From contig CP124529.1 in NCBI GenBank assembly GCA_029953615.1, positions 5,482,494 through 5,546,493 of the forward strand: a DNA stretch of 64,000 nt. Direction: 5' to 3'. How positions within the stretch are numbered: the stretch's first letter is position 1; every line of letters starts with the position of its first letter. Shown here in pieces: positions 81 through 56,010 of the stretch. The notes beneath the pieces were generated by a model. The model saw nothing but the letters and a program-made list of their open reading frames with translations, made no database searches and was not told the origin of the DNA. Source of the DNA: Pseudomonas putida. Its GTDB lineage: Bacteria > Pseudomonadota > Gammaproteobacteria > Pseudomonadales > Pseudomonadaceae. The position numbers and the translations under genes were made by a program.

Positions 81-3000
81 CACTGGGTTACCTCGACAGC
101 GTGTTGCACGGGGGCCGGCTTGCGCTTGAGCAGCTTCAGCACGAATACGAAACAGATCGGCACGAACACCACGCCCAGCAAGGTGGCGCTGAGCATGCCG
201 CCGATCACCCCGGTACCGATGGCGCGCTGACTGGCCGCACCGGCGCCGGTGGCGATGGCCAGCGGCACCACGCCGAGGATGAAGGCCATGGAGGTCATCA
301 CGATCGGGCGGAAACGCAGGCGCGCGGCCTCGATGGCGGCGTCGCTCAGGCTGTAGCCCTTCTCCCACAGTTCCTTGGCGAACTCGACGATCAGGATGGC
401 GTTCTTCGCCGCCAGGCCAATGATGGTGATCAGGCCGACCTTGAAGTACACGTCGTTGGGCATGCCGGTGAGCGTCACCGCCCACACCGCCACCCAGAGC
501 ACCGATCGGCACGATCAACATGACCGTCAGCGGGATCGCCCAGCTCTCGTACAGCGCCACCAGCAGCAGGAACACCACCAAGATGGCCAGGGCGAACAGG
601 CTGGCCGCCTGGCCGCTGGACACCTTCTCCTGGTAGGAAAGGCCCGTCCAGGCGTAGCCGATACCCGGCGGCAGCTCGCTGACCAGGCGCTCCATCTCGG
701 CCATCGCCTGGCCAGTACTATGCCCCGGCGAAGCGTCGCCGGCGATGCGGATGGACGGGTAGCCGTTGTAGCGCACCAGTTGCACCGGCCCCTCTTCCCA
801 CTGGGTGGTGACGAAGGCGCTGAACGGCACCTGCTCGCCGTTGGCATTCGGGGCATAGAGGCGCAGCACGCTTTCGGGGGTCATGCGTTCGCCTTGCTCA
901 GCCTGCACCACCACGCGCTGCTGGCGCCCGGCATTGGTGAAGTCGTTGATCACCGCCGAACCGAAAGCCGTGGCCAAGGTGCTGTTGATGGCCTCGAAGC
1001 TCACCCCCAGTGTTCGGGCTTTTTCCCGGTCGATGTGCACACGCAACTGCGGCGCCTCGGCCAGGCCTTCCATCATCGCATAGAGAATCACCGGGTTGCT
1101 GTTGGCGCGGGCCAGCAGTTGGTCACGGGCGGCGAGCAGCGCTTCACGGCCAAGGCCACCACGGTCCATCAGACGCAGGGCGAAACCGCCGGAGTTGCCC
1201 AGGCCGTCGATGGGCGGCGGCATAACCGCGGTGATGGCACCATCACCGTTGGCGGCGAACTGCGCATTGATCGCTGCCGTTTCCGCCTCTGCCGATTGCG
1301 TCTTGTCACGCTGCGACCAGTCCTTGAAGGTGGGGAACGCCAGCGCGGCGTTGTCGCCCTGACCCGAGAAACTGAAGCCGCTGACGATGAACGAGTTGGC
1401 CACCGCCTCACGAGACATCAGGAATTTTTCCAGCGTCTCGGCGGTGTGGTCGGTGCGTACCCGGCTGGCGCCTGGCGGCAACTGTACGTCGACGACGCTG
1501 TAGCCCAGGTCTTCAGCTGGCACGAAGGCCTCCGGTAGACGCAGGTAGGAATAGCCCAGCACCACCAGGATGCCGACATACGCCAGCATCCAGCGCCCGG
1601 CACGCGCCACCAGCCCGTTATTGAGCAACGAATAGCGCTCGGTGATATGGGCGAAGCCACGGTTGAAGGCACCGAAGAAACCGCCCTTCTCATGATGGCC
1701 CTGAGGCACTGGCTTGAGCAGCGTGGCGCACAGCGCTGGGGTGAAGGTCAAGGCCAGGAAGCCGGAGAACAGGATCGAGACAGCCAGAGACACAGAGAAC
1801 TGCTGGTAGATCACCCCCACCGAACCGGACATGAACGCCAAAGGCAGGAATACCGCCGCCAGTACCAGGGTGATACCAATAATGGCCCCGGAAACCTGCC
1901 CCATGGCCTTGATGGTCGCCTCCACCGGCGACAGGCCTTCCTCGGCCATCAAGCGCTCGACGTTCTCCACCACCACGATGGCGTCGTCCACCAAGATGCC
2001 GATGGCCAGCACCATGCCGAACATGGTCATCATATTCACCGAGAAGCCGAGCAGCTTCATGATCATCAGCGTCCCGAGCAGGCACACCGGTACCACGATC
2101 GAGGGCACCAGGGTGTAGCGGACGTTCTGCAGGAACAGGAACATCACCAGGAACACCAGCACCATGGCTTCGATCAAGGTGTGGATCACCTTCTCGATGG
2201 CCACGTCGACGAAGCGCGAGGTATCGTACGGCACCGAATACTCGACCCCTTCGGGGAAGAACTGCGACAGTTCGGCCAAGCGCTCCTTGACCAGCGTCGC
2301 GGTCTGAATGGCGTTGGCGCCCGGCGCCAGCTGCACCGCGCCGGCCACCGCCGGGTGGCCGTTCAGGCGTGCCGACAGGTTGTAGTTCTCGCTACCGATG
2401 GCCATGCGCGCGACATCACGCAGGCGTACGCTGGAGCCATCCGGGTTGGCGCGCAGGACGATGCCGGCGAAAGCCTCCGGCGTGTCGAGGGTGCCCTGCA
2501 CCGCCAGGGTGGCGGTCAGTTCCTGCTCGCTGGCGCCCGGCGTGCTGCCGAAGCTGCCGGCCGGCACCTGGACGTTCTGGCCGCGAATCGCCGTGTTGAT
2601 GTCGTCGATGGACAGGCCATAGCCCACCAGTTTCTGTGGGTCCACCCAGACCCGCATGGCCGCTTCCGAGGCGAAGAACTGCAGCTTGCCCACGCCAGGC
2701 ACGCGCAGCAGTTCGTTGTTGATGTTACGCGCGGCATAGTCGGCCAAGGCCGTGGTATCGCCACGGTTGCCAGCCGTGCTGGTCAGGGCGTAGATCAGCA
2801 GGAAACCGGAACTGGCCTGCTCGACTTTCAGCCCTTGGGTCAGCACCGCCTGAGGCATGCGCGCCTCGGCCTGTTTCAAACGGTTCTGCACATCGACCTG
2901 CGCCATGTCCGGGTCGGTGCCTGGCTCGAAGGTCACCATCACTTCGGCCACGCCGTTGGAGTTGTTGGTGGACTCGTAGTACAGCAGGCCCTTGGCGCCA

Positions 3001-3209
3001 TTGAGCGACTGTTCGATGATGCTGGTCACCGACTCCACCATGACCTTGGCCGAAGCGCCGGGGTAGGAGGCGGTGATGGAAATCTGCGGTGGCGCCACGT
3101 TGGGGTACTGGGCCACGGGCAAGGATGGAATCACCAGCAGGCCCGCCAGTGAAACGAACAACGCCACGACCCAGGCGAAGTTCGGGCGATGGATGAAGAA
3201 TCTGGACAT
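80..3209 (-). CDS. RND (HAE1-type) multidrug efflux inner-membrane transporter, one frame break
   Basis: Proton-driven pump of the AcrB/MexB/TtgB family that takes substrates from the inner membrane and periplasm and passes them to the outer-membrane factor. Read as one gene it gives about 1042 residues, the usual family length. It begins [13 protein letters not shown], has the porter-domain motif [14 protein letters not shown], and has the proton-relay pair Asp408-Asp409 in [13 protein letters not shown] (AcrB D407/D408). The C-terminal part includes [15 protein letters not shown]. The frame changes within the CC at 490-491: removing one base joins PIGALGAV to [11 protein letters not shown], exactly as in homologues. 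The uncorrected frame stays open and runs into the outer-membrane factor. The break sits at a 500-base border and is probably a sequence error. The gene lies 15 bases after the adaptor gene in one operon. Confidence 0.9.
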
Positions 3210-3224
3210 CTCACTTCCCTCGCA

Positions 3225-4361: not shown

Positions 4362-4411
4362 TCACCCGAGCCTTGATTGAAAACGGGGCGAATGCTACTT
4401 TTCAAACCCAG

Positions 4412-4431: not shown

Positions 4432-4452
4432 ATAAATCAAACAAGGCTCCTC

Positions 4453-8526: not shown

Positions 8527-10954
8527 TCAGTGCACCAGCGCACCGATCATGCGCACGGGACGCTTACGCGGGAACACCCGCTCCAGCCAGACGGCAAAGG
8601 CCGGCAGCACGGTCATGGCCATGACCATGTTGACGATGAACATGAAGGCCAGCAGCTTGCCCATGTCAGCCTGGAACTTGAGCTCCGAGAACGCCCAGGT
8701 GGCCACGCCCACGGCCAGGGTGATGGCGGTGAAAATAGTGGCGACACCCACCTCGAGTAGCGCGCACTCGACCGCCTTGGTAATCGACTGGCCATGGGCC
8801 AGGTGCAGTTGCAGGCGATTGTAGATATAGAAGGCATAATCAACGCCAATGCCCACCGCCAGCACCATCACCGGCAAGGTGGCGATGGTCAGGCCGATCT
8901 GCAGTTCCTTCATGAACCAGTAGCCAATGAAAGTGCCGATAGTCAGCGGCAGGCAACACACCAGGACCGCTCGCAGGTCCCGGTACACCACGAACACCAG
9001 CAATGCGATGGCGGCATAGACATACAGCAGCATGGGGGTTTCGCTTTTTTCCACCTCTTCGTTGATGGCGGCCAGGACGCCGGCGTTACCGGACGCGAGG
9101 CGAACCGAAATGCCTGGCATCGGGTACTCGCTGCGAAACGCCTTGGCGGCGTCCACCACTCGGTTGATGGTGGTGGCCTTGTGGTCTGCCAGGTACAGGT
9201 GCACCGCCGACATGTTGCAGTCGGTGCGCATCAGCCCGGGCGTACGCGCCACCTCGGTGGCCAGCGCGGCGTAGTTCATCGGGTCGATGGGCACCGCCGC
9301 CATCTTCGGGTTGCCTTCGTTGTAGCCCTCGTTGAACTGGCGCATGTTGGTGGAGAAAGACGCGACCGACAGGACACCGGGCACCCCCTGCATGGCCCAC
9401 ACGAAGCGATCCTGGTACTGGCCCAGGGCGACATCCTCGCAGGCCACCTGGCTGCCTTCGCTGGAAGCGGCCTTGTTGACTTCGAACACCGACGCTGAGC
9501 CAGTCCAGACCTATGTCGTAGTTGCTGGCGATGGAGACCGCATCGCGATTGAAGCGCGAATTCTCGCGCAATTCCGGCGCGCCCGCCTGCAGCGTGCCAA
9601 CGACACGGTCATGGCTTTGCCAGATCGCCACCAGGAACACCACCAAGGCCGCGCCAAGCACCCACTGCGCCTTGCGCGGTTCGGCGAGCCGGGCCAGGCC
9701 ACGCAGCCAGCGGGTGCGCCGCTGCCGGGAAATTTCCTGAGCGGCCGCATACTTGTCATCGACACGTAGCAAGGACGCCATCAACGGCAACATCACCAGG
9801 TTGGTGATGATCTTGTAGGCCACGCCAAGCGAGGCCGTGATCGCCAGCTCCCGCACCATCGGGATCGGGATCAACAGCAGCGTCACGAAGGAAACCAGCG
9901 CGGTCACCAGCGCCAGCGTCCCGGGAATCAGCAACCCCGTGAAGCTCGAGCGCGCCGCCTCTTCGGCGCGCTTGCCGATGGCGATCTCGCGCACGATGAA
10001 GTTGATTTGCTGCACGCCATGAGAAACCCCGATGGCGAATACCAGGAAGGGCACCAGCACCGCCAGCGGGTCGAGCCCGTACCCCAACAGGCGCAGGCTG
10101 CCGAACTGCCAGACCAGCGAGGCCAGCGAACAGACCAGCGCCAGCAGCGTGAAGCGCAGGGAGTGGCAATACCAGTACACTGCCCCCGCCGTCAGCAGCA
10201 ACGCCAGCAAACAGAACTCCAACACCGCTGAAGCCCCGTCAGCGATGTCGCCGATCTGTTTGGCGAAACCGATGATCTGGATTTCGAAATCGCCATCTTC
10301 GAACTGCTGGCGGATCTCTTTTTCCAGCCTGTGGTTGAACGCCACGTAGTCCAGGTGGGCGCCATGGGTGTCGTACTCGTTGAGTTCCACCGTGATCATC
10401 GCGCTGCGCTGATCACGGGAAACCAGCGTGCCGATGAAACCACCCTGGGCAGTGGAGTTGGCGATCGTCGCGATGACCTGGTCATCCAGGTGCTCGGGAG
10501 AAACCGTCCCCGGTACCAGTGGATCCGCGCGAAAACCCTCTTCGGTGATTTCGTTGACGAAGGCATTGGGCGTCCACAACGAACGCACGCTGCTGCGCGA
10601 AACACCCGGAAGAAAGGTCACCGCCTGGGTGACGTCATACAGCCGTTTCAGACCTGCGGAGCTCCAGATATCGCCCTGTCGGGCCTTGACCACGAGGGTC
10701 AGCCGGTTCGCCCCCAGCAGGTCATTGCGGTAAGCCTCGAATGTCTCGATGTATTCATGGCCTACCGGCAATTGCTTTTCGAAGCCGGCATCCATGCGCA
10801 GTTGCACGGCGAACCAGCCCATGATCAGCGTGAACATCGCCAGGCTCGCCAGCACCAGACGACGATGCCCGAACAACACACCCTCGACACGTGACAACAG
10901 GCCACGTGCCGGGGCTTCAGATAGCTTTACAGAACCGTTCACGGCAAGCCTCAC
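8527..10954 (-). CDS. MMPL/RND-family transporter, one frame break
   Basis: Membrane transporter of about 808 residues when the break is ignored. Two halves are visible, each with a membrane segment, a periplasmic loop and a group of five hydrophobic segments: half one has DPLAVLVPFLVFAIGVSHGVQQ, half two has LPVMVLAVGIGVDYAFYIYN. This is the hopanoid/lipid-type RND family (MMPL). The frame changes in the CC at 9489-9490; dropping one base joins YDIGLDWLSV to VFEVNKAASSEG. The GTG start at 10954 overlaps the stop of the DUF1302 gene (GTGA). It probably exports or imports a hydrophobic compound together with the adjacent DUF1302 and DUF1329 proteins. The break sits at a 500-base border and is likely a sequence error. 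Confidence 0.85.
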
Positions 10955-16564: not shown

Positions 16565-17482
16565 TTAGAAGCCTTTGCCTGGCTCGGAGAAAGACGCCAT
16601 GCCCAGAAGCTCTTGTGGGTCGCGCATCTGCCCATCGATTTCAACCCAACCCAGCAGCGTGGAGCTGGCACTCCAACCCAGCAGACGTTGCAGTTGCGCA
16701 GGGAGCTGCCGAACACGCTCAACAGGAATGGACAGGAAGTGGTTTTCTTCCAGTCGCAGGAAAGCCAAGTCATACGCCATGGTCAGACCGGTGCGAGGCG
16801 TTGAGGATGTATTGGCGCCACCACCGTGGTAGACCGACCCCATCCATAGCAGCGCAGAGCCTGCCTTCATTTCGGCGGCGATTGTTTCTTCCTGCGTTGG
16901 CATGCGTTCGTCATCCCATTGATGGCTGCCGGGAATGACACGTGTCGCACCGTTCTCTTCGGTGAAGTCCGTAATGGCCAGCATGATTTGCAGCCGAGCC
17001 TCACGACCATATTGCGGATGCCGCCAGAGCGATGTGGCATCGTCGCGATGCAAAGGTTGCAAACCCTGGCCTGGGCCGATCTGGATAGCCTGGGTAATGC
17101 TGAGTTGGATATCCGGCTCGATCTCGACGCGGTCGCTTCCGACCCAGACATGGGTAGGTGTTTGCAAGATCTTTCTGGCGGACTCGAGAAACAACGGATT
17201 CAGCGCCACCTCTACCGCCGTGTCACTTCGCCCGAGAATTCGGGCGACGCGGCGTGTCTGGGTGCCGGCAAAGTAAGGGTCCATACCGCAAGGCGTGACA
17301 CTCAAAAAGGTGTCCAACTCCTCGGTCAGGGCCTTCAAGGTGCCTTCCGAGACAAAGTTGGAAATGATTACGGCACCGTCACGCTTGATGATTTCCACTA
17401 CCTGCTCGACCGGTGTGTCGCTGCTGACCGTCGAAAGTTTCCGTGTATCCATTTGCGCATTTACCTGTGTGCTTTGAGTCAT
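16565..17482 (-). CDS. Phytanoyl-CoA dioxygenase (PhyH) family protein 2
   Basis: Fe(II)/2-oxoglutarate dioxygenase-like protein of 305 residues. His145 and Asp147 in PLHRDDAT and the distal His in VYHGGGAN form the metal triad, and TPRTGLTMA has the probable 2-oxoglutarate Arg. It shares the TDFTEENGATRVIPGS region with PhyH protein 1 of this window. It heads a minus-strand transcript with the FAD oxidoreductase. Upstream lie palindromic sites also found before the monooxygenase operon, so the divergent TetR regulator probably controls both. Confidence 0.85.
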   Translation of the reverse strand: MTQSTQVNAQMDTRKLSTVSSDTPVEQVVEIIKRDGAVIISNFVSEGTLKALTEELDTFLSVTPCGMDPYFAGTQTRRVARILGRSDTAVEVALNPLFLESARKILQTPTHVWVGSDRVEIEPDIQLSITQAIQIGPGQGLQPLHRDDATSLWRHPQYGREARLQIMLAITDFTEENGATRVIPGSHQWDDERMPTQEETIAAEMKAGSALLWMGSVYHGGGANTSSTPRTGLTMAYDLAFLRLEENHFLSIPVERVRQLPAQLQRLLGWSASSTLLGWVEIDGQMRDPQELLGMASFSEPGKGF

Positions 17483-17946
17483 TGTTTGCTCAGCGGATCT
17501 GGGCCCAGGGCCCGGCTACAAGTTGCCGTAGGCACCCTGCGCTCACCTGTCGCGAGCGCCGAAAATCCGGCACTACCGACAAGAGCGATCGACTGATCAA
17601 CCGACATGATCACTTGATCAAGTCTTATGACCAAAGCAATTCACGTGCCGTTTTCCTGACCCGCGCCAGCGTCCACGGAAATTCAGGGGCGAGCGTCTGG
17701 CCTGCCGATGCACAGTGATACTGGCGTTCCCAAATCGGTGCCTCCCCGTGTTCGCCCGGCACGCCATATTGTGTATTAACGAAACACTTGTTATCTAAAG
17801 TTTCCCAGGGAAGGCGTCGCGCAGACCGCCCCCTGACGCTCAATCGCATCGACGCATGGATTGGGAAACAACCATGCGTTAGCATTCGTCCCCGCCGAGG
17901 CCAGACCCGATGGCTGGCGGCAATACCGAAGAGGGAGAAATGCCCA
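17483..17946. other. Divergent intergenic region between PhyH 2 and TetR
   Basis: A 464-base stretch with no convincing gene. It carries the operator-like cluster at 17593-17634. The remainder (17640-17930) has scattered short open frames only and ends in a purine-rich ribosome site (GAGGGAG) for the regulator. Confidence 0.6.
17593..17634. promoter_or_regulatory. Operator-like cluster with perfect palindrome
   Basis: Contains CTGATCAACCGA (17593-17604, identical to 14129-14140), a perfect 12-base palindrome ACTTGATCAAGT (17612-17623), and GATCAAGTCTTATGACCAA (17616-17634), which matches 18775-18793 at 17 of 19 positions. It lies upstream of PhyH 2 and of the TetR gene. Confidence 0.6.
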
Positions 17947-18822: not shown

Positions 18823-20350
18823 ATGTCCTCTCACACTGCTCTTCCGGTTGAGCCGCTCGATATTTTGATCATGGGAGCCGGTGTGTCTGGCATTGGTGCG
18901 GCAGCCTACCTGCGGCGTCATCAGCCGCACAAACGATTTGCGATTCTCGAGTCCCGCGAACGAATGGGCGGCACCTGGGACCTGTTCCGCTACCCTGGCA
19001 TTCGCTCCGACTCGGACCTGTACACCTTCGGTTTCGACTTCAAGCCCTGGACCAAGGCAAAGTCCCTGGCGGACGCCGCAGACATTCTCGAATACCTGCG
19101 AGAAGCCATCGACGAATATGAACTGGCGTCCTTCATCCAGTACCGGCAGAAAGTCGTTTCGGCGAACTGGCAGAGCGATAAAGGGCTCTGGGCAGTGAGC
19201 GTCGAGGATGGTCACACGGCAGAAACCCGCATCATCGAGTGCCGCTGGTTGTTCAGTGCAGGCGGTTACTACCGCTATGACCAAGGGTTCAGCCCACGCT
19301 TCGAGGGCACGGAGGCGTTCAAGGGACAGATCATTCATCCCCAGCACTGGCCGGAAAACCTGGACTACACGGGCAAGCGTGTCGTCGTCATCGGCAGCGG
19401 TGCAACGGCGGTAACCTTGATTCCAGCGATGGCGGACAAGGTCGCCAGCATCACCATGCTGCAGCGCACCCCTTCCTACATCATCAACCAAGCCCGCCAA
19501 AGACTCCGTTGCAGCGTTTCTGCGCAAAATCCTGCCTGCGCAAACCGCCTATTCCCTGACACGCTACAAGAACGCCAAGATCACCCTGGCTTTCTGGGCA
19601 TTCTGCCAACGCTTCCCCAAGCTTTCGAAAAAGCTGCTGCTGTGGCTGACCCGCAAGGAATTGCCCAAAGACTACCCGGTCGACGTACATTTCAACCCGC
19701 CCTACAACCCCTGGGACCAGCGCTTGTGTTCGGTCCCCGAAGGCGATCTGTTCAAAGCCATCAGCGCAGGCAAAGCCGACATCGTCACCGATCACATCGA
19801 GCGGTTCACCGAGTCCGGAGTATTGCTCAAATCGGGCAAGACACTGAAGGCCGACATCATCGTCACCGCCACGGGGCTGAACGTACAGCTGTTCGGCGGC
19901 ATCACCCTGCACAAGGACGGCCGACCGGTGATACTCAGCGAAACCCTGGCCTATAAAGGCATGATGCTCTCTGGTGTGCCCAATTTCGCCTTTGCCGTGG
20001 GCTACACCAACTCGTCCTGGACCTTGAAAGTGTGCCTGCTGTGCGATCATTTCTGTCGCCTGCTGGGCTTCATGGACAAACAGGGCCACAACGTCTGCGA
20101 ACCCAAGGCGCCAGCCGGTATCGAAACCCGCCCCTTGCTGGACTTTGGCGCCGGCTACGTGCAACGCGCCTTGGACAGCATGCCGCGCCAAGGGCCGCGT
20201 GAGCCCTGGGTGATGTCGATGGACTACTTCCGCGACGTCAAACTGCTGCGTCGGGGCAACGTTGCCGACAAGTGCCTCTCGTTCACCACAGTGCCCAACG
20301 CGCCTTTGCACGCTGGTGTCATGCTGCAGCAACAAGGTAGCCGTCGATGA
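18823..20350 (+). CDS. Flavin-containing (Baeyer-Villiger type) monooxygenase, one frame break
   Basis: Class B flavoprotein monooxygenase of about 508 residues. It has the first Rossmann motif [13 protein letters not shown], the complete BVMO fingerprint [12 protein letters not shown] (pattern FxGxxxHxxxWP), the second Rossmann motif [10 protein letters not shown], and ATGLNVQ near the C-terminal third. The likely reaction is NADPH- and O2-dependent insertion of oxygen next to a carbonyl, giving an ester or lactone for the next gene product, a hydrolase. The frame changes within CCC at 19493-19495; dropping one base joins PSYIINQ to [15 protein letters not shown]. The stop overlaps the hydrolase start (ATGA). 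The break sits at a 500-base border and is probably a sequence error. Confidence 0.88.
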
Positions 20351-25467: not shown

Positions 25468-26724
25468 ATGAACAACATCGAGACATTCGAAAAGGCTCGA
25501 GTCCAACGTGCGGATGTACTGCCGTGACTTGCCGCTGGTGTTCGATACCGCCCAAGGCAGCAAGATCCGAGGTGAAGACGGCCGCGAGTACCTGGACTTC
25601 TTCGCTGGCGCCGGCGCCCTGAACTATGGCCACAACGACCCGCGCATGCGCGATGCCTTGATCGCGTATCTGTCGTCCAACGGCGTGACCCACGCCCTCG
25701 ACCTGCACACCACCACCAAGCGCCAGTTTCTCGAAGCGATCGAGCGCGACCTGTTCAAGCCACGCGGCTGGGACTACAAGGTGCAGTTCACCGGCCCGAC
25801 CGGTGCCGACGCCGTCGAGGCGGCGTTGAAGCTGGCGCGCAAGGCGACGGGGCGTACCAAGGTCGTCTCGTTCTATGGGGCTTACCACGGCATGACCGCC
25901 GGCGCCTTGGCCGTCACCGGCAACCGCACTCGCCGTGGCCCTGGGCTTTCCACCGATGTGGTGTTCGTGCCGTACGAAGACAGCCCCTACGGCGAATTCG
26001 ACAGCATTGGCTTCCTCGAGCGCCTGGCCAACGACCAGGGCAGCGGCTCGGAGCTACCGGCGGCGGTGATCGTCGAGTCCGTGCAGATCCAGGCCGGCGT
26101 CTACCCGGCTTCCAACGAATGGCTGCAACGCTTGCGCAAGTGGACCAGCGATCACGGCGTGTTGCTCATCTGCGACGAAATCCAGGCCGGCTGCGGGCGC
26201 ACCGGCGACTTCTTCGGCTTCGAGCGCTCCGGGGTGGTGCCAGACCTGATCACCTGCGCCAAATCGATCGGCGGCTTCGGCCTGCCGATGGCGATCGTGT
26301 TGATTCGCGCCGGGCTGGATGTGTGGCAACCGGGCGATCACATCGGCACCTTCCGCGGCAATCAACTGGCCTTCTTGACGGCCCAGATCGCGCTCGGCTA
26401 TTGGCGCGATGAGTCGTTCCTGAAGTTGCTGGCCACCAACTGCGCGGCCATGGAGCGCGCGGTCGCCGGTTTCGCGGAAATTCCTGGCGTGTCGCCTCCG
26501 CGCGCTGTCGCGGCATGATCGCCGGCATCGACTTCGGTCGCGGCAACGTCGCATTCGCCAAGGATGCCCAGCAGCGTGTGCTGCAGGCGGGTGTGCTGGT
26601 CGACCGCTGCGGCCCGAACGGCGAAATCATCAAGCTGATGCCACCGGTGAACACCCCGACCGACCAGCTCGAAGAAGGCCTGAAAGCCTTCGGCGAATCG
26701 GTCGCGGCAGCGTTTAGCCAGTAA
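25468..26724 (+). CDS. Class III aminotransferase, EctB-like (diaminobutyrate-2-oxoglutarate type), two frame breaks
   Basis: PLP-dependent aminotransferase of about 418 residues, the length of EctB. EctB-like features include FFAGAGALNYGHNDP, FTGPTGADAVEAALKLAR, the Asp in LLICDEIQAGCGRTG and the PLP Lys in ITCAKSIGGFGLP. The ATG at 25468 follows AAGAGG. The frame shifts +1 in the GG at 25494-25495 (NIETFEK then LESNVRMYCRDLP) and -1 near 26494, before RCRGMIAGIDFG. The two changes cancel, so total length is a multiple of three; both sit at 500-base borders and are probably errors. No ectoine synthase or ectA gene is nearby, so a role in amine catabolism rather than ectoine synthesis is more likely. 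Confidence 0.82.
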
Positions 26725-31466: not shown

Positions 31467-33120
31467 TCAATGCTCGGCGTCGGCGGTCTGCGCCTCCTGT
31501 TGCCGGGCCCACTCGCGCAGGACGAACTTCTGGATCTTGCCGGTGGCGGTCTTGGGCAGTTCCGTGAGCGACACATGCCGCGGCGCCTTGAAGTGCGCCA
31601 GGCGTTCACGGCACCAGCGGATCAGGTCGGCCTCCGTAACCGTGGCCAGCGCATCAGCGCGCAAGGTGACGAACGCATGGGGTGTCTCACCCCAGCGCGA
31701 GTCCGGGCGCGCCACCACCGCCGCCTCAACCACCTCTGAGTGCTGGTAGAGCACTTCCTCGATTTCCAGCGAACTGATGTTCTCGCCACCGGAGATGATG
31801 ATGTCCTTGGCCCGGTCCTTGATTTCCACGTAACCGTCCGGGTGCAGCACGGCCAGGTCGCCCGTGTGCAGCCAGCCATTGGCCAATGCGGCCCGGGTGG
31901 CCTCTGGGTTGTGCAGGTAGCCTTTCATCACGGTGTTGCCGCGCACCACCAGCTCGCCAAGGGTAAGGCCATCGGCTGGAACCGGGCGGCCGGTATCGGT
32001 ATCCAGCACCGTGGCCTCCTCGAGCATCGGGTGGGCGACACCCTGGCGGCTCATGAACTGCGCCCGGGCCTCAAGCGGCAACTCGTCGACCCCCGGCTGC
32101 CACAGGCACAATGTGCTGGGGCCATAGCTTTCGGTCATGCCATAGGCATGGGTGATGTTGAAGCCACGCGCCTCCATCGCCGCAATAACCGCACTGGGCG
32201 GGGCAGCACCGCCAGTGATCACCGATACCGGCACCGGAGGGGCACTGGCATGCTCGGCGTGGATCAGCATCGACATCACCACCGGGGCGGCGCTCAGGTG
32301 AGTCACGGCATGCTCGGCGATGGCGGCGTTGATCGCATCAGGCTGGACCTTGCGCAGACACACGTGGGTGCCACCGGACAACGTCACCGCCCAGGTATGG
32401 CTCCAGCCGTTGCAGTGGAACATCGGCAAGGTCCACAGGTAGACGCTGCGCGGCCCCAACTGGAAGATCAGCGCCCCAGCGCAGGCGTTTAGGTAGGCGC
32501 CGCGGTGATGCAACACCACGCCCTTGGGGTCCCCCGTGGTGCCGGAGGTGTAGTTGATGGCGATCGACTGCCATTCGTTCTGTGGCGCACTCAAGGGTCG
32601 CGCGGGGTCGCCCTGGGCCAGGAACGCTTCGTAGTCCAGGTCGTGGGCCAGGTCGGCGCGCTCGGCCTGATCATCGTCGATGCCCACCAGCAAGGGCGGC
32701 GCATCGAGCATGGCCAGCGCCTGACTGGCCACGGCACCGAACTCGCGGTCGCAGATCAATACCTTGGCCGCGCAGTGCCGCAAGATGAAGGCGATGCTGC
32801 GTGCCTCGAGCCGAATGTTGATGCATACCAGCACCGCCCCGGCACCGGGCACGCCATAGTGGGCTTCGAGCATTTCAGGGATGTTCGGGGCCAGTATCGC
32901 CACCCGTTCGCCCGGTTGCACACCGACCCGCTCCAGGGCACTGGCCAGAGCACGGCTGCGCTCGTGCAACTGAAGATAGTTGTAACGCCGCCTTACCATA
33001 GACCACCGCATCTCGCTGCGGATATACCTGTGCGGCCCGCTTGAGAAACGACAGCGGCGACAGCGGCACATGGTTGGCTTCGTTGGGGGCAAGCTCGTGA
33101 TCGAGGGTTGGAACCATCAT
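31467..33120 (-). CDS. lvaE: LvaE, acyl-CoA synthetase (levulinyl-CoA forming), one frame break
   Basis: AMP-dependent acyl-CoA ligase of about 550 residues; LvaE activates levulinate with CoA and ATP in the published lva pathway. Motifs are the P-loop YTSGTTGDPKGV, AYGMTESYGP, the A8 region GENISSLEIEEVL and the catalytic Lys in LPKTATGKIQKF. The start is ATG 33120 or 33117 (MMVPTLDHE). The frame changes in the CC at 32991-32992; dropping one base joins DAVVYGK to RRYNYLQLHERS. Everything else is intact and the site is at a 500-base border, so an error is likely. Confidence 0.9.
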
Positions 33121-33203
33121 GGCAGACACCTCATCGACACTTTGCTCAGGTTTTGCACGCACATACCTACCTCCTGTTCTTGTTATTATTGCGCCAGGGC
33201 GCG

Positions 33204-39323: not shown

Positions 39324-39678
39324 TCAGTGAGCGCTGCCAGGACCCAGGCAAACATCGATCATTTCCGCGACGTCAAGCAAACGCTCGCGCAAAGCGGGAA
39401 GCCAGACCACTGCTACGGACGAGTTCCGCTGCGCCAACTCAAGCACCGCCTGAAGGGCATGTTCGGAATGCCGCATTAATTCAATCAAATGAAGGGCCAC
39501 TCGGACCATGGCTGCCCGCCAGCCAATGCTTAGCCGTACGTTCACTGGCATCGGTCCAATGGCGCAGCGTCTTGATTGCGCGATGTGACGTGCCTAATTC
39601 GGTGCGCAAGGCAGCAGCTAGGGCACCGGCGTAAGTTTGGGCGCAGATTGGAAATGAATTACCCATTTTAGTGATCAT
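39324..39678 (-). CDS. Small HTH-like protein divergent from the recombinase, one frame break
   Basis: Protein of about 117 residues when the break is ignored. The ATG at 39678 (MITKMGNSFPICAQTY) has AGGAGA nine bases upstream. The middle region (HRAIKTLRHWTDASERTAKHW) has the spacing of a helix-turn-helix, followed by LAGSHGPSG and LIELMRHSEHAL, so it may be a small DNA-binding regulator. The frame changes in the AA at 39493-39494; dropping one base joins SHGPSGP to HLIELMRHSE. It is divergent from the serine recombinase (123 bases between starts) and may repress it. The function is inferred only. Confidence 0.6.
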
Positions 39679-39800
39679 CTTTCCGTATCTCCTCTTTATA
39701 TTCGTGAGTAGCGCATCTGATGTAGGCCGGTAGGTGTGGTGCGGTCTACGGCTTGGCATGGGTGTAGACCCCAAGTCGCTAAGGGGGCATCGATCTACAA

Positions 39801-41354: not shown

Positions 41355-42247
41355 TGGCCACATCGGAAGAGCATCTTGCACTTCATGTGGCGCAGGCGGC
41401 GCCTATTGCGCAGATCCCACTCGCGGATATTCGCGTGCTCAATCCGCGTAGTCGCAATCAACAAGTGTTTGCACGCCTGGTGGAAAACATTGCGAGTCTG
41501 GGGTTGAAACGACCGATCACGGTGACCCGTAACGGTTCGAGTTTCGACCTGATCTGTGGGCAGGGGCGCTTCGAAGCCTTCAAGGTCCTGGGGGAGTCGG
41601 CCATTCCAGCGGTCGTGGTGACGGCGGCAGAGGCAGACCGCTATCTCATCAGCCTGGTAGAGAATCTGGCGCGACGTAAGCATTCGAACCGCGACTTGCT
41701 GATGGCGATCAACGTACTGCACGAGCGTGGTTACTCCATCAGGCAGATTGCCCAGAAAACCTGCTTGGACCGTGCCTATGTTGGCGGCATTTTGATCTTG
41801 TTGCGGCAGGGAGAGGAGCGCCTGATCGCTGCCGTCGAAAAGGGCTGGCTACCGATTAAAGTCGCGATCCATGTGGCACGGTCCGACGATGCCCAGGTCC
41901 AGGCCGCCATGGTCGAAGCCTATGAAAGTGGATTGTTAAAAGGAGATGAACTCATCAAGGTGCGCCGCCTGATCGACCGAAGACGCGTTCTTGGCAAGGG
42001 CTATGGTAGGCAGCATGGAGGCGAGCGCATGACCACTCCTCGCCAGTTGCTGACTGCCTATCAGACTGAGGTGCGCCGTCAGCGCCTGATGGTAAAGAAG
42101 GCGGACATCGGTGAGCAAAGATTGCTCTTCGTCGTGACTGCATTGCGTCGGTTGTTGGCCGATGAATTTTTCCGGTCAATGTTACGCAGTGAAGGTATTG
42201 ATGATATGCCGCAGGTATTGGCCGAGCGAATTCAGGGGGACGCATGA
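41354..42247 (+). CDS. ParB/RepB-like nuclease-domain protein 1
   Basis: Protein of 297 residues with a ParB N-terminal domain: IPLADIRVLNPRSRNQ, LVENIASLGLKRPI, the CTP-binding motif-like ICGQGRFEAFKVLG, and VENLARRKHSN. A helix-turn-helix follows (YSIRQIAQKTCLDRAYVGGIL). In chromosome or plasmid partition ParB binds parS and CTP; here there is no ParA gene beside it. It overlaps both the recombinase and the second ParB-like gene. A role as a recombination accessory or DNA-marking factor is a guess. Confidence 0.83.
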   Translation: MATSEEHLALHVAQAAPIAQIPLADIRVLNPRSRNQQVFARLVENIASLGLKRPITVTRNGSSFDLICGQGRFEAFKVLGESAIPAVVVTAAEADRYLISLVENLARRKHSNRDLLMAINVLHERGYSIRQIAQKTCLDRAYVGGILILLRQGEERLIAAVEKGWLPIKVAIHVARSDDAQVQAAMVEAYESGLLKGDELIKVRRLIDRRRVLGKGYGRQHGGERMTTPRQLLTAYQTEVRRQRLMVKKADIGEQRLLFVVTALRRLLADEFFRSMLRSEGIDDMPQVLAERIQGDA

Positions 42248-43149
42248 CTGTCGTCAAGCGTGCCTTTGCCCCCGAGTTGATTACCGTCCGCTTACCGCTG
42301 ATCTTGCCCTCTCGCCAAGTCACCCACGACATGCTGACGTCCGTCAAATTCGCAGCGATTTTAGCCTCCATCCGTGAATTGGGCGTGGTCGAGCCGCTCG
42401 CGGTTTATCCCGAGCCGGTTCACGGGACGGGAGGGGAGCCTCGTTATCTACTGTTGGATGGTCATTTGCGGCTAGCTGCGCTCGCACAGTTGGGGGCGGA
42501 AGACACGTTGTGCCTGTTGGCGACAGATGACGAAGGTTTTACCTACAACCGGCAGGTCAACCGACTTACCCCGATTCAAGAGCACAAGATGATTCTGGAG
42601 GCGATACGCAAAGGAACGACTGCCGAGCGGATTGCCGAAGTCTTGAGCGTCAACGTCGGACGCATCCGCGAGCGCCAGCATTTGTTGCGGGGGATTGCGC
42701 CGGAAGTCGCTGAGATGCTGAAAACGCGAATGGTTAGTCAGGCGGTCTTTCGCGTGTTGCGTAAGATGAAGCCGATGCGCCAGGTAGAACTAGTCGAGAT
42801 GATGATTTCCGCCAACTGCTTTACTGGTCGCTACGCCGAAATGGTATTAGCCGCAACGCGTCCTGAACAGCTGGTTGAGGCAAAGAAAGTCAGTGAGGGC
42901 GTGACTGCTGAAGACATTGCACGCATGGAGCGAGAGATGGAAAAACTCTACCACGATTACCGGTTGGTCGAGGACACCCTCGGCGAAACCATGCTGGTAC
43001 TCGTGGTTGCCAAGGGCTATGTGTCTCGCATGCTGCGCAATCAGACTATCGCAGCTTACCTGGAGCGTTTCGAGCCTGACCTAGTGCGGGAGCTGGCGGG
43101 GGTTGTGGAGGCGGTCACCGCAGATGCTCGTAGTCTGGAGCGTGAATAG
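42244..43149 (+). CDS. ParB/RepB-like protein 2
   Basis: Protein of 301 residues with a second, more divergent ParB-type domain: ILASIRELGVVEPLAVYP, YLLLDGHLRLAAL (in the place of the GERR motif) and RLTPIQEHKMILEAI. The middle HTH-like region (TTAERIAEVLSVNVGRIRERQHLL) and the C-terminal part resemble RepB-type plasmid partition proteins. It overlaps ParB-like 1 by four bases. Two different ParB-like proteins in one operon behind a recombinase suggest a heteromeric complex. Confidence 0.8.
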   Translation: MTVVKRAFAPELITVRLPLILPSRQVTHDMLTSVKFAAILASIRELGVVEPLAVYPEPVHGTGGEPRYLLLDGHLRLAALAQLGAEDTLCLLATDDEGFTYNRQVNRLTPIQEHKMILEAIRKGTTAERIAEVLSVNVGRIRERQHLLRGIAPEVAEMLKTRMVSQAVFRVLRKMKPMRQVELVEMMISANCFTGRYAEMVLAATRPEQLVEAKKVSEGVTAEDIARMEREMEKLYHDYRLVEDTLGETMLVLVVAKGYVSRMLRNQTIAAYLERFEPDLVRELAGVVEAVTADARSLERE

Positions 43150-43853: not shown

Positions 43854-43921
43854 GCCGACCTCTTCGTTATATTAGGTCTGATAAGCACTGGTTATCCGAA
43901 CCTATTGCAGCGTTGAGCGAG

Positions 43922-44582: not shown

Positions 44583-45416
44583 TCAACGCATGAGATGCGC
44601 TAACTCCTCGACCGACCGCGAAATGAGAACAAGCATTCTTTCAATTATAACTGAATCTCCAACCTCTTTAATCCCCTTAAACTCTTTGGTGCTCCATGCA
44701 AGAACACTTACAAAATCATGCCCTCTAATATATGAACGCGGATCCCCAGTCAATCGTGCCAGCCATACATCTAATAGCTTGACGAATTCGGCCTGATCTT
44801 GATGCCTTCGATTCTTGGAAAGAAGCCGATTCAGGTATGTACCAATGTTGATCGCAAGCCCACTTCCTTGAGTCGAAAGATCCTTAAAAGGTTCGACCCA
44901 CTCCATATTCCAGGCTAGCTCGCGATCCACAACACGTAAGGCATATAGTGTTTTTAGCACCAAAGCCAATGAGTTCATAAATTCGTCAATGTCACTAATT
45001 TTGGCTCGACCAGAAACAACAACTATATCAGTTAGTATTTTTTTCGTGTAAAAATAAAGCTCAATTGATGTATGCTCAGTCCAATTCAATCGTGGAACTT
45101 GCTCGACCGTTTCAACCCAGTGATCCAAGTCTTTATCAACGACACAACGATACTGACTATCTTCAGTAATGACAGACAATTCTTTTGCAAGAGCAATTAC
45201 ACGCTGCTTATTGCCGTCAGTCAGACCATGCTTAGCTAAGATATCCGGCCCAATGTCTATTCCATCGATATCATAAACCACATGATCGGTTCCGACAGAA
45301 GATATGAAGGATGTAAGAACCTCCTTATCAAACAAGCCCTCTACATAGATGTCTTGCAACGTTGGCTCATACTGGTGACGGACGATTAGCTCATCTATTT
45401 TTCTTCTAGGAATCAT
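44583..45416 (-). CDS. DUF4435/TOPRIM-like protein, second gene of an ATPase pair
   Basis: Protein of 277 residues. The N-terminal IYVEGLFDKEVLTSFI matches the TOPRIM acidic start (Glu26), CVVDKDLDHW resembles the DxD strand, and HTSIELYFYTKKIL fits the region after it in DUF4435. The start overlaps the ATPase stop by four bases, so the two are co-translated. The pair (ATPase first, DUF4435 second, sizes 484 and 277) matches the layout of the PARIS anti-phage system AriA-AriB, where AriB is a TOPRIM nuclease released by AriA. Homology to AriB is not certain from sequence reading. Confidence 0.7.
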   Translation of the reverse strand: MIPRRKIDELIVRHQYEPTLQDIYVEGLFDKEVLTSFISSVGTDHVVYDIDGIDIGPDILAKHGLTDGNKQRVIALAKELSVITEDSQYRCVVDKDLDHWVETVEQVPRLNWTEHTSIELYFYTKKILTDIVVVSGRAKISDIDEFMNSLALVLKTLYALRVVDRELAWNMEWVEPFKDLSTQGSGLAINIGTYLNRLLSKNRRHQDQAEFVKLLDVWLARLTGDPRSYIRGHDFVSVLAWSTKEFKGIKEVGDSVIIERMLVLISRSVEELAHLMR

Positions 45417-46867
45417 TGTGCCCTACTCTGCATAGGCACCACCCGGTCTCTATGTTGCGCAAGCAATTCCATAGAATGCGATGCAAAGATAAACTGAATC
45501 CTGCTCTCCTTTGTGATATCAAGCAAGGATTGGACAAGCTGCCTTTGCCATTTGACATTCAGAGAGATCTCAGGCTCGTCGATCATAAAGACACAAGGCT
45601 TATCCCGCCCAGAAAGAACATAGCAGAACAGCAGCATGAGTTGTTGTTCACCAGAGGATAGGTGCCTGGCATCAAGAGGTTCATTTTTTGCGCTATATAT
45701 ACTGAAACCCTGACTTACCTTATACGTAATATATTTATCCCTTAAATAATTTTCATTGATGGTTGTGACAAACTTTTCGATCAACTGATAAATAGGATCA
45801 AGGGCGGCCAGACGGCTATGCAGGCTTTCAATATATGGAACTAATAGCTCAGCAGCTATGCGTTTTTTACTTTTAGACCGTGCATTAAGAGATTTTTTAA
45901 GTTCGAGAGTATTGAGAGGAGTGGCCAACTCATATCGTGAGAGCTCATTCGTTTTATGCTCAATCCCCGATAGCTGATTTTGGAGCTCTGTGAAATCGGT
46001 GTCTTCAAGAGGTGAAGAATTGGCAGAAGTCAGCTGTTTGATTACATTTGTGTAAACGGTATGAACATTTTCAGACCCACGGTTTGCGCTGTGTATAGCC
46101 TTGCGAGAGATCCACTTGCTCGCAGAGCTTAACGCTTGCATAAGAGCTATTTGCCTAGAGCGGGTAACGATGTCATTTAATCGCTTGGGCTCATCCATAC
46201 GCATGAACCGCCGAAGTTCAACCTCGTCACCTGGATCTGCTACAGCATCACTATCTAAGCGCCTGTCAGCATTCAAGATAAATATGTTTGGGACAAAGCT
46301 TGACAACTTGCTTAAAAAAGGCCCCTCACCTATAAGCTCACCTGCGATTTTATATCGATCAGCAATACTCTTCTTAGTGCTTCTTACTACCAACCCACTA
46401 TCCGAATCATGGTAATAATAGTCGGTAGTATCCGCCCGGTGATTTCTGGGAACAAACTCCCAGAGCGCAAGGATTGCAGTGTCACGCTCTACGGTAAGAA
46501 CTAGTTTTTTTAAATGCTCTCCAGATGCAAGTCGATTCCTCGTCAGTTGTCTCTTAGCTCGAACAGTCACTCCATTTGCGAGCGCCGCACTCAGCTCGTC
46601 AAATTCTGCGTCATATAGCGCCTGTCTGTGGCCATTTCTTGGCCCTGGAGAGAGCAGATGAAACACTAACCGGAGAAGGGTACTCTTCCCGACACCATTG
46701 TCTCCATATAGAATTGCAGCGTTAGAGAATAGACCACTAGCGGGGAGATCATAATTATAAAGCCCAAACAAACCTTTTACCGATATGGACGCAATCAAAG
46801 GCGAGGCCTGCATGACTGGCTTGCTAAGACTATCAAATACTTGTTCTAAACTCACATCAATCTCCAT
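45413..46867 (-). CDS. AAA/ABC-type ATPase, first gene of a PARIS-like pair
   Basis: ATPase of 484 residues. Walker A is YGDNGVGKST (residues 54-63), the ABC signature is HLSSGEQQL, Walker B is VFMIDEPEISL and the switch His lies in FASHSMELLA. A helical region of about 200 residues lies between the two nucleotide-binding halves, as in AAA_15/AAA_21 ATPases of OLD, retron and PARIS systems. It is AT-richer than the flanking Pseudomonas genes, a sign of transfer. It probably senses a phage protein and controls the DUF4435 partner. Confidence 0.8.
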   Translation of the reverse strand: MEIDVSLEQVFDSLSKPVMQASPLIASISVKGLFGLYNYDLPASGLFSNAAILYGDNGVGKSTLLRLVFHLLSPGPRNGHRQALYDAEFDELSAALANGVTVRAKRQLTRNRLASGEHLKKLVLTVERDTAILALWEFVPRNHRADTTDYYYHDSDSGLVVRSTKKSIADRYKIAGELIGEGPFLSKLSSFVPNIFILNADRRLDSDAVADPGDEVELRRFMRMDEPKRLNDIVTRSRQIALMQALSSASKWISRKAIHSANRGSENVHTVYTNVIKQLTSANSSPLEDTDFTELQNQLSGIEHKTNELSRYELATPLNTLELKKSLNARSKSKKRIAAELLVPYIESLHSRLAALDPIYQLIEKFVTTINENYLRDKYITYKVSQGFSIYSAKNEPLDARHLSSGEQQLMLLFCYVLSGRDKPCVFMIDEPEISLNVKWQRQLVQSLLDITKESRIQFIFASHSMELLAQHRDRVVPMQSRAQ

Positions 46868-52369: not shown

Positions 52370-52380
52370 AAATTGCCTCG
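52370..52380 (+). repeat. Candidate TnsB-binding repeat, left copy
   Basis: AAATTGCCTCG, 26 bases inside a TGTCAAAT that could be the terminal TGT. The inverted partner is at 59741-59751, so the pair encloses the whole tns operon. Confidence 0.4.
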
Positions 52381-52538
52381 CCGTCCTCCCCCAGCGATAG
52401 GCTTTGAACAACATCAAGGCTCATGCCACTGGCCGACGACTTATGCTAGAAACCAATAACAAAAATCTCCGCGGAATTTATAAACGAAACGATGAAATTG
52501 GCTTTTCTACAAAAACGTAATTTTGTTCGAGGTGAACT

Positions 52539-52569
52539 CAAGGTGATCCAAGCGTTCAGGATCACCTTG
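52539..52569. repeat. Perfect inverted repeat upstream of tnsA
   Basis: CAAGGTGATCC (52539-52549) and GGATCACCTTG (52559-52569) form an 11-base perfect stem with a 9-base loop. There is no T-run, so an operator or an insulating hairpin for the tns operon is more likely than a terminator. Confidence 0.5.
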
Positions 52570-52730
52570 ATTTAAGCCTCAATACGCGCGCCCACCAAAG
52601 TTACTGCAGAGTCTACTGCTGATTCATGCTGTTCCATTACAGGCCACAAAGTCAGAGAGTGCTCTTGCCAGACGCATTTCAAATGATAGAGAAAACCATT
52701 AACTCAGCGAAACTTTTCAGGAGCAAGAAC

Positions 52731-53378
52731 ATGCTTACTGTACCGCCGAGCCTAGCCATCAACCTAAGCATTATCGAAGCTGTAGCCCCGAGTAGAGGCC
52801 GCCACGGCAGGCGCGTCACACAGTTCCCTTCGCGAAAAAACGGGCGTGTCATGGGCTGTGATTCATTACTCGAAGCTGACTTCTGCCTCCTCCTGGAACG
52901 AAATCCGAATATCAGGAGTTACACCACACAACCCTGCACCGTAGAACTGCTGGCACCACACACTCGCTACACCCCAGATTTTGAGGTCGTGTATCAAAGC
53001 GGCAAAGTGGCTTACTACGAAATCAAACATGATAATAAATACAACAGTCCGCGCAACGTAGCTCGCCGCCATCTGTACGAACCGCTCTTTGCTGAGTGCG
53101 GCTCTTTCCTGAAGACAATCAGACAATCCGAAATACAACAAGCCGGCGCCGACTGTGATTTGAAAAAACTCTATTGGTACTCATTCGGTGCCGTAGCCGC
53201 TCAAGCCACGCTCTTAGCCAAGTCTCTTCCCACTACGGCTAGGGACCCCCAAACAATTGGCCAGTTGCTCAGCCAAGGATATCGAATGCAAGAGATTGCT
53301 TACGGACTGTTTTACCGCATGCTTTTTAGAGTGGACACTGGGCCATTGCATTTGGGCTCGAAAATCATCAGTCACTGA
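52731..53378 (+). CDS. tnsA: TnsA-like transposon endonuclease
   Basis: Protein of 215 residues from the ATG at 52731, which has AGGAG seven bases upstream; the open frame begins at 52626. The restriction-enzyme-like active site of TnsA can be read: Glu in CDSLLEADFCLLLERNP, Asp in RYTPDFEVVY and ExK in YYEIKHDNK. TnsA cuts the 5' ends of the element and allows cut-and-paste movement with TnsB. A C-terminal DNA-binding region follows (GQLLSQGYRMQEIAYGLF). It heads the tns operon. Confidence 0.87.
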   Translation: MLTVPPSLAINLSIIEAVAPSRGRHGRRVTQFPSRKNGRVMGCDSLLEADFCLLLERNPNIRSYTTQPCTVELLAPHTRYTPDFEVVYQSGKVAYYEIKHDNKYNSPRNVARRHLYEPLFAECGSFLKTIRQSEIQQAGADCDLKKLYWYSFGAVAAQATLLAKSLPTTARDPQTIGQLLSQGYRMQEIAYGLFYRMLFRVDTGPLHLGSKIISH

Positions 53379-53417
53379 CTGCTTGTATTTAATCTAAGCT
53401 AAATAGGAGGCACTTGT

Positions 53418-54047
53418 ATGAGACAGTCTCTCCGTTATCCCTTTACCCCAAGCCAAGGGAAACATATTTACCCAGGGCACGCAAAACAACGTCGCCAGAG
53501 TCCACCATTGAAAGTGGAGATGACTTCATCAGTGCCTATGCCCAACTATTTCTCACCGCACGAGCATCGTGTACTGGTGGATGAGATAGACATGGTGCAA
53601 CACACCATCAGAGTTTTTCCAGCGGTCTCAAACCTCCGAGTAGCTTTGCCCGCATTCTTTTCACACCTCAGAAGCTACAAGGACAAGTATTCAGGGCCCC
53701 TGAGCCATGGGTCGCCCGACAGCCTTCTTTTATCGCTGAAACTCATTGATCCTCTCGCCCGTCGCGGTATCACGTCGTGGTTAATAGTTGATCGGTTAAG
53801 CCGGATAATTGTGGATGCCGGGCTTATCAAGAACAACTCACCCTCATGGACTGCATGGGCGCGACTTGGCGCGGGATTGGAGTACACCCCTGATAACGGC
53901 GCGGATTACAGCGCTAAAGTGCTGGCGGATAGCTTGGCGTTGATCGGGGTTCAGATCAATTTCGTCACACCCCGCGTGCATGACCGGAAATCCGACGTCG
54001 AGCGTTTCTTCCAGAGTCTGAAGACTCACCGCAATTTCTCAGCGTGA
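53418..54047 (+). CDS. Short TnsB-like transposase relic between tnsA and tnsB
   Basis: Protein of 209 residues with a good ribosome site (AGGAGG). The last 95 residues resemble the rve core of TnsB: ITSWLIVDRLSRIIV, then YTPDNGADYSAKVLADSLAL and SDVERFFQSLKTH, parallel to YTCDNGPDF, LADSLALIGAR and HVERWFKTLNTH of the full TnsB downstream. The second Asp and the Glu are kept, but the region with the first catalytic Asp is missing, so it cannot be an active transposase. The N-terminal 100 residues match nothing I know. It is either a deleted older tnsB or a reused fragment. Confidence 0.65.
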   Translation: MRQSLRYPFTPSQGKHIYPGHAKQRRQSPPLKVEMTSSVPMPNYFSPHEHRVLVDEIDMVQHTIRVFPAVSNLRVALPAFFSHLRSYKDKYSGPLSHGSPDSLLLSLKLIDPLARRGITSWLIVDRLSRIIVDAGLIKNNSPSWTAWARLGAGLEYTPDNGADYSAKVLADSLALIGVQINFVTPRVHDRKSDVERFFQSLKTHRNFSA

Positions 54048-54074
54048 CACACTAATCCTTGGCGGAGGTTGAAA

Positions 54075-56010
54075 ATGCGCACGCTCGCTGACTTCACTGT
54101 GACCCCAGGCGAACACTATCGCTGTGGCGACGAAGACTATCAGGTCACGTCTGTAGAACAAGGCACGGTGCAACTGCGCAGCTTGCGCCGCACCGGCATG
54201 ATTACTTGTAAATCAATCGACCGATTCAAAGTTGCCTGCAGCCGCGGCTATTACATCAAGGTTGCCGAGGCCCCTTTGAAAGGCCAGCCCAATAGGATCG
54301 TGTCTGGCCTGTCCGAAGCACATCAGCATGCACACAACAAGCGACTGGCTTATGTCAGAGCTGCTGAGGCCCGTTTCGGCACAAAGTTGCCAGTGGATGA
54401 GACCCTGCAGTTGATCAACCAGGTTAAGCTAGAGCGCGGGGACGCTGCCGGTCCGACCTATCCAACGCTGTATAGCTGGTGCAGGGCTTATCGGTTAGCA
54501 GGTGGAAGCGCCATTGCCCTGGTGCCTCGTCCCAGACGTGGTCAAAGCCGGATATCAAGGCAGCCAGAAGAAGTGCGATCGGTTTTCAACTACAACGTCG
54601 AATTATTCTACTTAACGAGGACACCCCTCCCCATTTCCGAGGTGATCGACAGCATCATTGCCCAACTGCAAGTCGACAACAGCAAGCGACCGGTGCACCA
54701 GCAAGTGCGCATCCCCTCTTACTCTACGTTCTACCGACTCATCAAAGAACTGGATCAGTTTCGCGTCGACAGTTGTCAGCATGGTAACAAGTTTGCCAAG
54801 CAGCGGCAGAAGTGGAGCAAAAAAGCCAAGACGCCCAATTATCTGCTGGAACATGTGGAGTGTGACAGCCAGCGAGTAGATTTGCAGTTGGTCGACGACC
54901 AAGGGCGCAATATCGGCAGGGCGTGGCTGACCGTGTTGTTGGAAGTAACGTCGAGACGAATTATCGGCTGGGATCTTTCACACAATCATCCAAGCATTGA
55001 GAAAACAATCCGTGCCATCAAGGTTTCATTGACGCCTGGCGACCGACGGGGTGCGGCAGCCTCTTATACCTGCGACAACGGCCCGGACTTCATCAAAAAA
55101 AAGCTGGCTGATAGTTTGGCGTTGATTGGAGCTCGAGTCATTTTCTGTGAGCCTGGTTTGCCTGATCAGAAACCTCACGTCGAGCGCTGGTTCAAGACCC
55201 TTAACACCCACCTGACCCATAATCTGCCTGGCACCACGTTTTCTAACCCCATCGAGTGTGGCGATTATGAGTCAAAAAAAGAGGCGGTTTACACCCTCGA
55301 GCAATTCACTGAGTTATTTGAGCAGTGGTTGGAAATCTACCATGCCACGCCGCACTCGTCGCTGGATGACACGAGCCCCAACGATGTCTGGGACAATAAC
55401 GTCGACCCTTGCTTTCCGCCAAAGACCTATAGCTTGGAAGACATTCACCAGATATTCCTTAGCAAAGCCACTGCCAAGCCAGTCAATGGACGGTGTGCGC
55501 TACCACCATCTGCAATGGACCTGCCCCGCAATTCCATATTTGTCCACCCGCAGTCGGAATGAGGTGATGCTGACGTTTTTCTACGACGTCAGTGAACTAG
55601 GCACCATTTGGGTCTGTGACCCTCAAGACTCCAATAAATTGTATGCCGCTGAGGCGGTGGATCCCGACTATCAAGTGGGCTTGACAATGGCCATGCACGA
55701 TGAAATTCGCGCCGCTATGTCTGAACGTCGTAAGGCTTTTAGCTTCGCTAAAGCTAAAGAGCAACGGCGGCTGCTCAACCTCAAAATGCGCGCCAAACAC
55801 AAAAAGGCGACTCACAAGCCCAAAGACTCGTCGAAAATGGCGAAAGCAACTGCCACACCCGAGCGCAAACCAACATCTGCACGGAAACAGAGCCGACCCG
55901 CGCCTGCAAGGCTGCCGTTTACTGACAGCATACCCAACAACGCAGAAGTTGTGGAAGTCAGACTCGTTGATGTCCCTCCAACAACCACCGGAGACGATCA
56001 TGAACACTAA
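54075..56010 (+). CDS. tnsB: TnsB-like DDE transposase, one frame break
   Basis: Transposase of about 644 residues from the ATG at 54075 (GGAGG upstream). The HTH-rich N-terminus is followed by the rve core with catalytic Asp in VECDSQRVD, Asp in YTCDNGPDF and Glu in HVERWFKTLN, and a Mu-type C-terminal barrel with YDVSELGTIWVCDP and a basic tail. The frame changes in the GG at 55488-55489; dropping one base joins ATAKPVN to DGVRYHHLQW. The break sits at a 500-base border and is probably an error. It overlaps tnsC by 11 bases. It joins the 3' ends of the element to target DNA. Confidence 0.87.

Follow-up and report, generated by a model that had tools for sequence, protein, structure and literature searches.

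Surplus bases spaced by 500 along a Pseudomonas putida contig and their probable origin in block-wise consensus polishing

The closest described counterparts of the pattern reported here are tools that derive a consensus window by window. A racon-like polisher has been described as building its consensus in non-overlapping 500-base windows (PMC11392814), and VeChat is likewise described as working in non-overlapping windows of 500 bp (PMC9636371). CONSENT is presented as shunning non-overlapping windows, on the ground that the ends of a window may be left without a consensus (PMC7804095), while a benchmark characterises the windows of Racon as non-overlapping and reports new errors when Racon was run after medaka (PMC11232133). 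According to the results given in the Polypolish paper, Racon added errors to all 100 error-free genomes, and its first round of simulated short-read polishing introduced 5161 errors in the 100 genomes, or ~52 each (PMC8812927).

Here, an error comb is described in the assembly of Pseudomonas putida GCA_029953615.1 (contig CP124529.1), a one-contig genome of 5,764,016 bases (5.76 Mb) that is listed as 99.95% complete. The starting point was a window, by which is meant the whole stretch of 64,000 nucleotides analysed (bases 5,482,494-5,546,493). The pattern resembles what is described for Racon-type polishing in its block length of 500, in blocks that are processed alone and in errors being added to error-free sequence; it differs in its rate, which exceeds that of the simulation cited about twentyfold, and in that no comb of surplus bases at block borders was found in the descriptions of Racon covered. 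VeChat shares the 500 bp non-overlapping windows, but is described as correcting reads, whereas the errors here are in a contig, and CONSENT shares the trouble at window ends, although its stated problem is a missing consensus and the one seen here is a surplus. Ordinary long-read homopolymer indels are also small and frame-breaking, and seven of nine single surplus bases here lie in runs of 2-4, but such indels occur wherever runs are, whereas the errors described below track position modulo 500. In the literature on polishing and consensus tools no description of an error comb modulo 500 was found, which is not proof of its absence in print.

Frame breaks in the window and their absence from relatives

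The first-pass annotation had reported eight frame breaks, all at 488-495 modulo 500 of the window, which corresponds to genome phase 481-488. As an observation these eight on-phase breaks are real and are confirmed: seven of them are gaps against near-identical DNA in another genome, G078, and the eighth, in the tnsB-like gene, is on phase at a point where the frames of homologues are continuous (Table 1).

The alignment with G078 extends from window position -7042 to 44060 (51.1 kb) at 99.91% identity and contains 11 gaps, ten of which are surplus bases in the P. putida contig (nine single bases and one pair), all at genome phase 481-487, so that 10 of the ~102 borders in the matched stretch are hit. 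Seven of these ten surplus events are sites that had already been reported, one lies near 17489 and two are directly before the start of the window. The event near 17489 breaks no frame and had been missed, and the original list of sites was in this respect incomplete. The 11th gap, a base absent from the P. putida contig near 43890, falls in the decaying end of the alignment, and 26 of the 34 mismatches are in the last ~165 aligned bases. In the clean ~50.9 kb every one of the ten gaps falls on the border phase; the eight mismatches show no clustering there. All errors in this stretch, which was read at base level, are surplus bases and none is a loss. The change near 26494 had been taken for the loss of one base, and its effect on the frame is indeed that of a -1 change, but the base count is not, as comparison with G078 reveals a surplus of two bases. 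Eight of the ten surplus stretches duplicate the adjoining base or bases and two do not; among the nine single surplus bases, six are in runs of 2-3, one is in a run of 4, and two are at sites without a run.

Further evidence has come from four named assemblies (loci L093-L096; 99.1, 99.7, 90.2 and 91.1% identity), which cover two borders only, near 19490 and 25490, and show no surplus at either, and from a locus of genome G211 (L065, 87%), which covers only the border near 19490, where the surplus is absent as well. These loci hold other indels too, many in the more distant ones, and these are off the phase. Comparison with relatives, which had been proposed as a check, thus places the surplus in the P. 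putida contig and finds it absent from the relatives at the sites compared (G078; L093-L096). G211, which is the closest genome at the contig start (91%), was also tried as a second comparator, and just 9,377 bases aligned over positions 1-200,000 of the P. putida contig; as this was too short, its stretches were used as controls for the HMM described below.

Table 1. Border events in the window, with the evidence for each (phases are genome phases modulo 500; HMM values are posteriors of the coding-frame model)
Feature	Position in window	Strand	Evidence
RND efflux permease gene, break (pieces 492-3209 and 80-490)	480..500	-	Gap vs G078, phase 483; HMM 0.99
MMPL-family gene, break (8527-10954)	9480..9500	-	Gap vs G078, phase 484; HMM 0.99
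Border event outside the reported frames, just upstream of ORF 16565-17482	17480..17500	.	Gap vs G078, phase 482
Flavin monooxygenase-like gene, break (18823-20350)	19480..19500	+	Gaps vs G078, L093-L096 and L065; HMM 0.99
EctB-like aminotransferase gene, break near start	25480..25500	+	Gaps vs G078 and L093-L096; HMM missed
EctB-like aminotransferase gene, break near 3' end	26475..26504	+	Two-base gap vs G078, phase 482; HMM missed
LvaE-like acyl-CoA synthetase gene, break (31467-33219)	32980..33000	-	Gap vs G078, phase 486; HMM 0.63
Small gene, break (39324-39930)	39484..39504	-	Gap vs G078, phase 487; HMM missed
tnsB-like transposase gene, break (54069-56010)	55478..55498	+	Phase 481; beyond the G078 match; HMM missed

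Protein family profiles run on across several of the breaks. In the RND permease, positions 1-910 and then 911-1045 of TIGR00915 are matched on separate pieces, the profile being continuous across the break, and in the LvaE-like synthetase positions 4-42 and then 43-543 of NF006020 are likewise matched on separate pieces. At the 3' break of the EctB-like gene, NF006733 is matched at 15-339 and then at 348-419 by separate pieces in two frames, while MMPL/TIGR00921 is matched by both parts of the MMPL-family gene. The N part of the monooxygenase-like gene is FMO-like. Neither a Pfam nor an NCBIfam family matched its C part, the part upstream of the 5' break of the EctB-like gene, either part of the small gene (previously labelled "HTH-like") or the C part of tnsB, and the sites of these five gene pieces therefore rest on DNA or homologue comparison. 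In the case of tnsB, the two pieces adjoin in a single frame of a homologous locus (L163), where the N piece ends at 2907 and the C piece starts at 2920, and likewise in L164; ten homologues from other genomes were compared, with an open frame of 632-678 aa in nine and of 435 aa in one, against 504 here. Rfam gave no match within the window at gathering threshold, and a tRNA scan with ARAGORN was negative for the window, L088 and L090.

Period and phase of the breaks along the contig

Frame breaks elsewhere in the contig were located with a coding-frame HMM, a codon-position Markov model in which rare frame jumps are allowed, whose training data came from the contig itself, some later-fetched stretches being left out. 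In 76 stretches of the contig, amounting to 1,517,000 bases (1,242,977 coding), the model gave 215 events after repeats from overlapping stretches had been dropped, and 132 of these were confident, with a posterior of at least 0.9 and flanked on each side by coding sequence of one strand; the other 83, which were weaker or had a non-coding or opposite-strand side, were excluded from the phase tests. When the eight reported sites are used as a gauge, the model called three at 0.99 and one at 0.63 and missed four. A break called near window position 40288 is an error of the model, since G078 has no gap there and yet gives the identical call.

A band of phases from 440 to 515 (76/500, ~15% expected) was fixed from the first 21 stretches, and 34 of the 42 confident breaks of the first sample lie in it. 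Among later-fetched stretches, 74 of 90 confident breaks are in the band (binomial p ~5e-45, with events taken as independent), some of these stretches having been picked to track the drift described below, so that the sample of the contig is not random. The chance of eight sites falling inside an arc of 7/500 is about 8 x (7/500)^7, near 1e-12, an arithmetic figure that ignores how the first-pass annotation selected its sites; the test on later-fetched stretches avoids this selection. In the sampled contig beyond the window, 105 of the 128 confident breaks are in the 76-base band; the lack of any phase preference across the contig, which had been named as the outcome that would speak against an artefact, was not what the scan found. 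In a scan of periods from 40 to 2000 (615 pairs less than 120 kb apart) the best period was 500 (score 0.548), followed by its harmonics 250 and 125 and by 100, and there was no power at 1000 (-0.034).

When each break was compared with the local phase estimated from the others (leave-one-out), 92 of 132 were at most 20 bases away (null mean 10.8). The remaining 40 are a mixture of natural breaks, errors of the model and poor localisation. Frame changes of one surplus base (or of two lost) account for 80 of the 92 in-phase breaks, and the remaining 12 have the opposite frame change. The in-phase rate, 0.037 per 500 coding bases (92 events), is a floor, which together with a recall of 3/8 agrees with about 1 border in 10 being affected.

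In contrast to the contig, control genomes show no phase. The model gave 69 events, 24 of them confident, in 38 stretches from 22 other genomes (760,000 bases, 628,316 coding), and 2 of the 24 are in the band (Rayleigh p ~0.8); twenty of these genomes were sampled at 20 kb each, a coverage at which a faint comb in a single genome could escape notice. The six rRNA operons of the contig, chosen as an internal control, fail to show the comb and weigh against a uniform behaviour of the artefact: they yielded 18 minority indel entries, of which 4 are in the band where ~3 are expected, a count confounded by copy differences and repeat mapping. Natural differences between rRNA copies and repeat mapping may hide the comb there. 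The indels of these operons (L122-L126) are mostly past the 16S gene and mostly off-phase, and may represent natural variation or repeat mis-polishing.

The phase of the comb drifts along the contig, from ~445 to 516. Within the band it moves from 471 near the contig start to ~507 by 0.73 Mb, to ~445 at 2.6 Mb and to ~511 at 2.9 Mb, and lies at 470-502 towards the contig end. The clustering modulo 500 originally noticed therefore holds as to its period, but a fixed phase of 488-495 does not extend across the contig. By arithmetic, surplus bases alone would shift the phase by ~1,130. In a simulated balanced walk, where as many bases are removed within blocks as are added at borders and where the rate is 10 of ~102 borders (~1,130 sites), the range was 45-115 (5-95%) with a mean of 72; the observed range is ~71, or 90 with four lone events at 530-535. 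This range would match repeated rounds of one block-wise step. A phase step of ~+58 between contig positions 2,857,958 and 2,889,516 (L170, L171), within 32 kb, exceeds the balanced walk, and slow drift thus does not account for it; it may mark an original contig end.

Origin of the surplus bases

The frame breaks are very probably errors of a last consensus step in non-overlapping 500-base blocks and not mutations, a reading to which we give a probability of about 0.96. The same step in 500-base blocks had been proposed at the outset, and it is supported by the period of 500, by the slowly moving phase and by the absence of the surplus from near-identical DNA. In such a process, the last polishing step would cut the draft contig into non-overlapping 500-base blocks, each block would receive a separate consensus, and the blocks would then be joined end to end, with about one join in 10 keeping a surplus base (once two). 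The end of a block would have no flanking sequence to settle whether the terminal base belongs, and several rounds, each stripping the surplus bases of the previous round, could leave a net drift near zero. The errors appear to have arisen at the borders, as opposed to being leftovers of the draft, since a draft with 1 error per 5 kb predicts that ~0.1% of borders are hit, not 10%. Counted against this account are the 40 of 132 breaks off the local phase, the unexplained +58 step, the rRNA operons and the rate in the Polypolish simulation, where ~52 errors per genome are far under the ~1,100 implied here, so that Racon in that use alone does not yield the present rate.

As to the tool, Racon has a default window of 500, and Quiver/Arrow has a chunk size of 500 as well. 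Racon-type partial-order-alignment windows are a rather likely source. A different block-wise program, for instance PacBio Quiver/Arrow with its 500-base reference chunks, or a home-made pipeline could have produced the same artefact, which is possible but unlikely: the lack of any further gap in the ~50.9 kb clean alignment indicates high accuracy within blocks and suggests that the reads used in the last step were accurate, but the data here do not separate the tools, and a literature search for the option name of Arrow gave no paper. That the tool was something other than Racon-type or Quiver/Arrow is doubtful.

Ordinary random long-read homopolymer errors would suit the surplus bases that fall in runs of 2 to 4 (seven of nine), but such very short runs, missing altogether at two sites, and a position that tracks the 500-base phase make this origin highly improbable. 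Real mutations, as in pseudogenes decaying within an island of recent acquisition, might be expected given that the 51 kb shared with G078 holds most of the reported sites and that mobile-element genes are present. However, the positions of natural breaks should ignore assembly coordinates, as opposed to falling in one 76-base band outside the window; the period of 500 is found across the sampled contig, core stretches included; and in ~50.9 kb ten indels are all on phase while eight mismatches are unclustered. This explanation is therefore scarcely credible. Programmed ribosomal frameshifting, or any other recoding signal of biological origin, can be set aside almost entirely, as no point in its support was found, the genes are unrelated and on both strands with one event outside any gene, and the frame change is absent in near-identical G078 and, at two sites, in L093-L096.

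Consequences and neighbouring elements

In the living strain, the genes that are broken here at the border phase are probably whole. The advice of the first-pass annotation to treat them as such stands, since relatives hold uninterrupted copies, and on-phase broken genes are not to be read as lost by the strain. On-phase frame breaks anywhere in the contig are likewise to be doubted. If the rate of 10 per ~102 borders, which has one stretch as its basis, were general, the 11,528 borders of the contig would include ~1,100 (~1,130) affected sites, and many genes would be wrongly labelled as pseudogenes. There is perhaps an even chance that completeness scores (99.95% here) are blind to ~1,100 border insertions and that combs of this kind exist in some fraction of the polished genomes in public collections, with inflated pseudogene counts and false frames in protein databases. 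Frame breaks combined with a period scan provide a reference-free screen for other assemblies that needs no reads. As an artefact and not biology, the comb is of interest for quality control.

The 51.1 kb shared with G078 stands at 99.91% identity, against 85% in the comparison of contig starts, and elsewhere in the 164 kb compared no match to G078 exceeds 400 bases; the shared stretch is probably a product of recent horizontal transfer. The best named matches for a protein of this stretch are in Pseudomonas guariconensis (99-100%) and other Pseudomonas. At its right end (39801-43149), a large serine recombinase gene is followed by genes for two RepB-family (ParB-like) proteins, and these are perhaps the mobility module of the stretch.

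Between the shared stretch and a Tn7-like module are genes for an AAA_21 ATPase (45413-46867), a tyrosine-type phage integrase (47467-48429) and a KfrA_N plasmid protein (50081-51088). The Tn7-like module itself (52626-59340) encodes TnsA-like and TniQ-like proteins, which score under the Pfam cut-offs, a TnsB-like transposase, and a TniB-family ATPase, which scores over the cut-off; for the protein of 56935-59340 a search of genome contigs found no relative. Next to this module, at 59856-63935, two DUF2589 proteins are followed by the type VI secretion protein TssG, an FHA-domain protein and a TssJ-type lipoprotein, and this region is part of a type VI secretion cluster.
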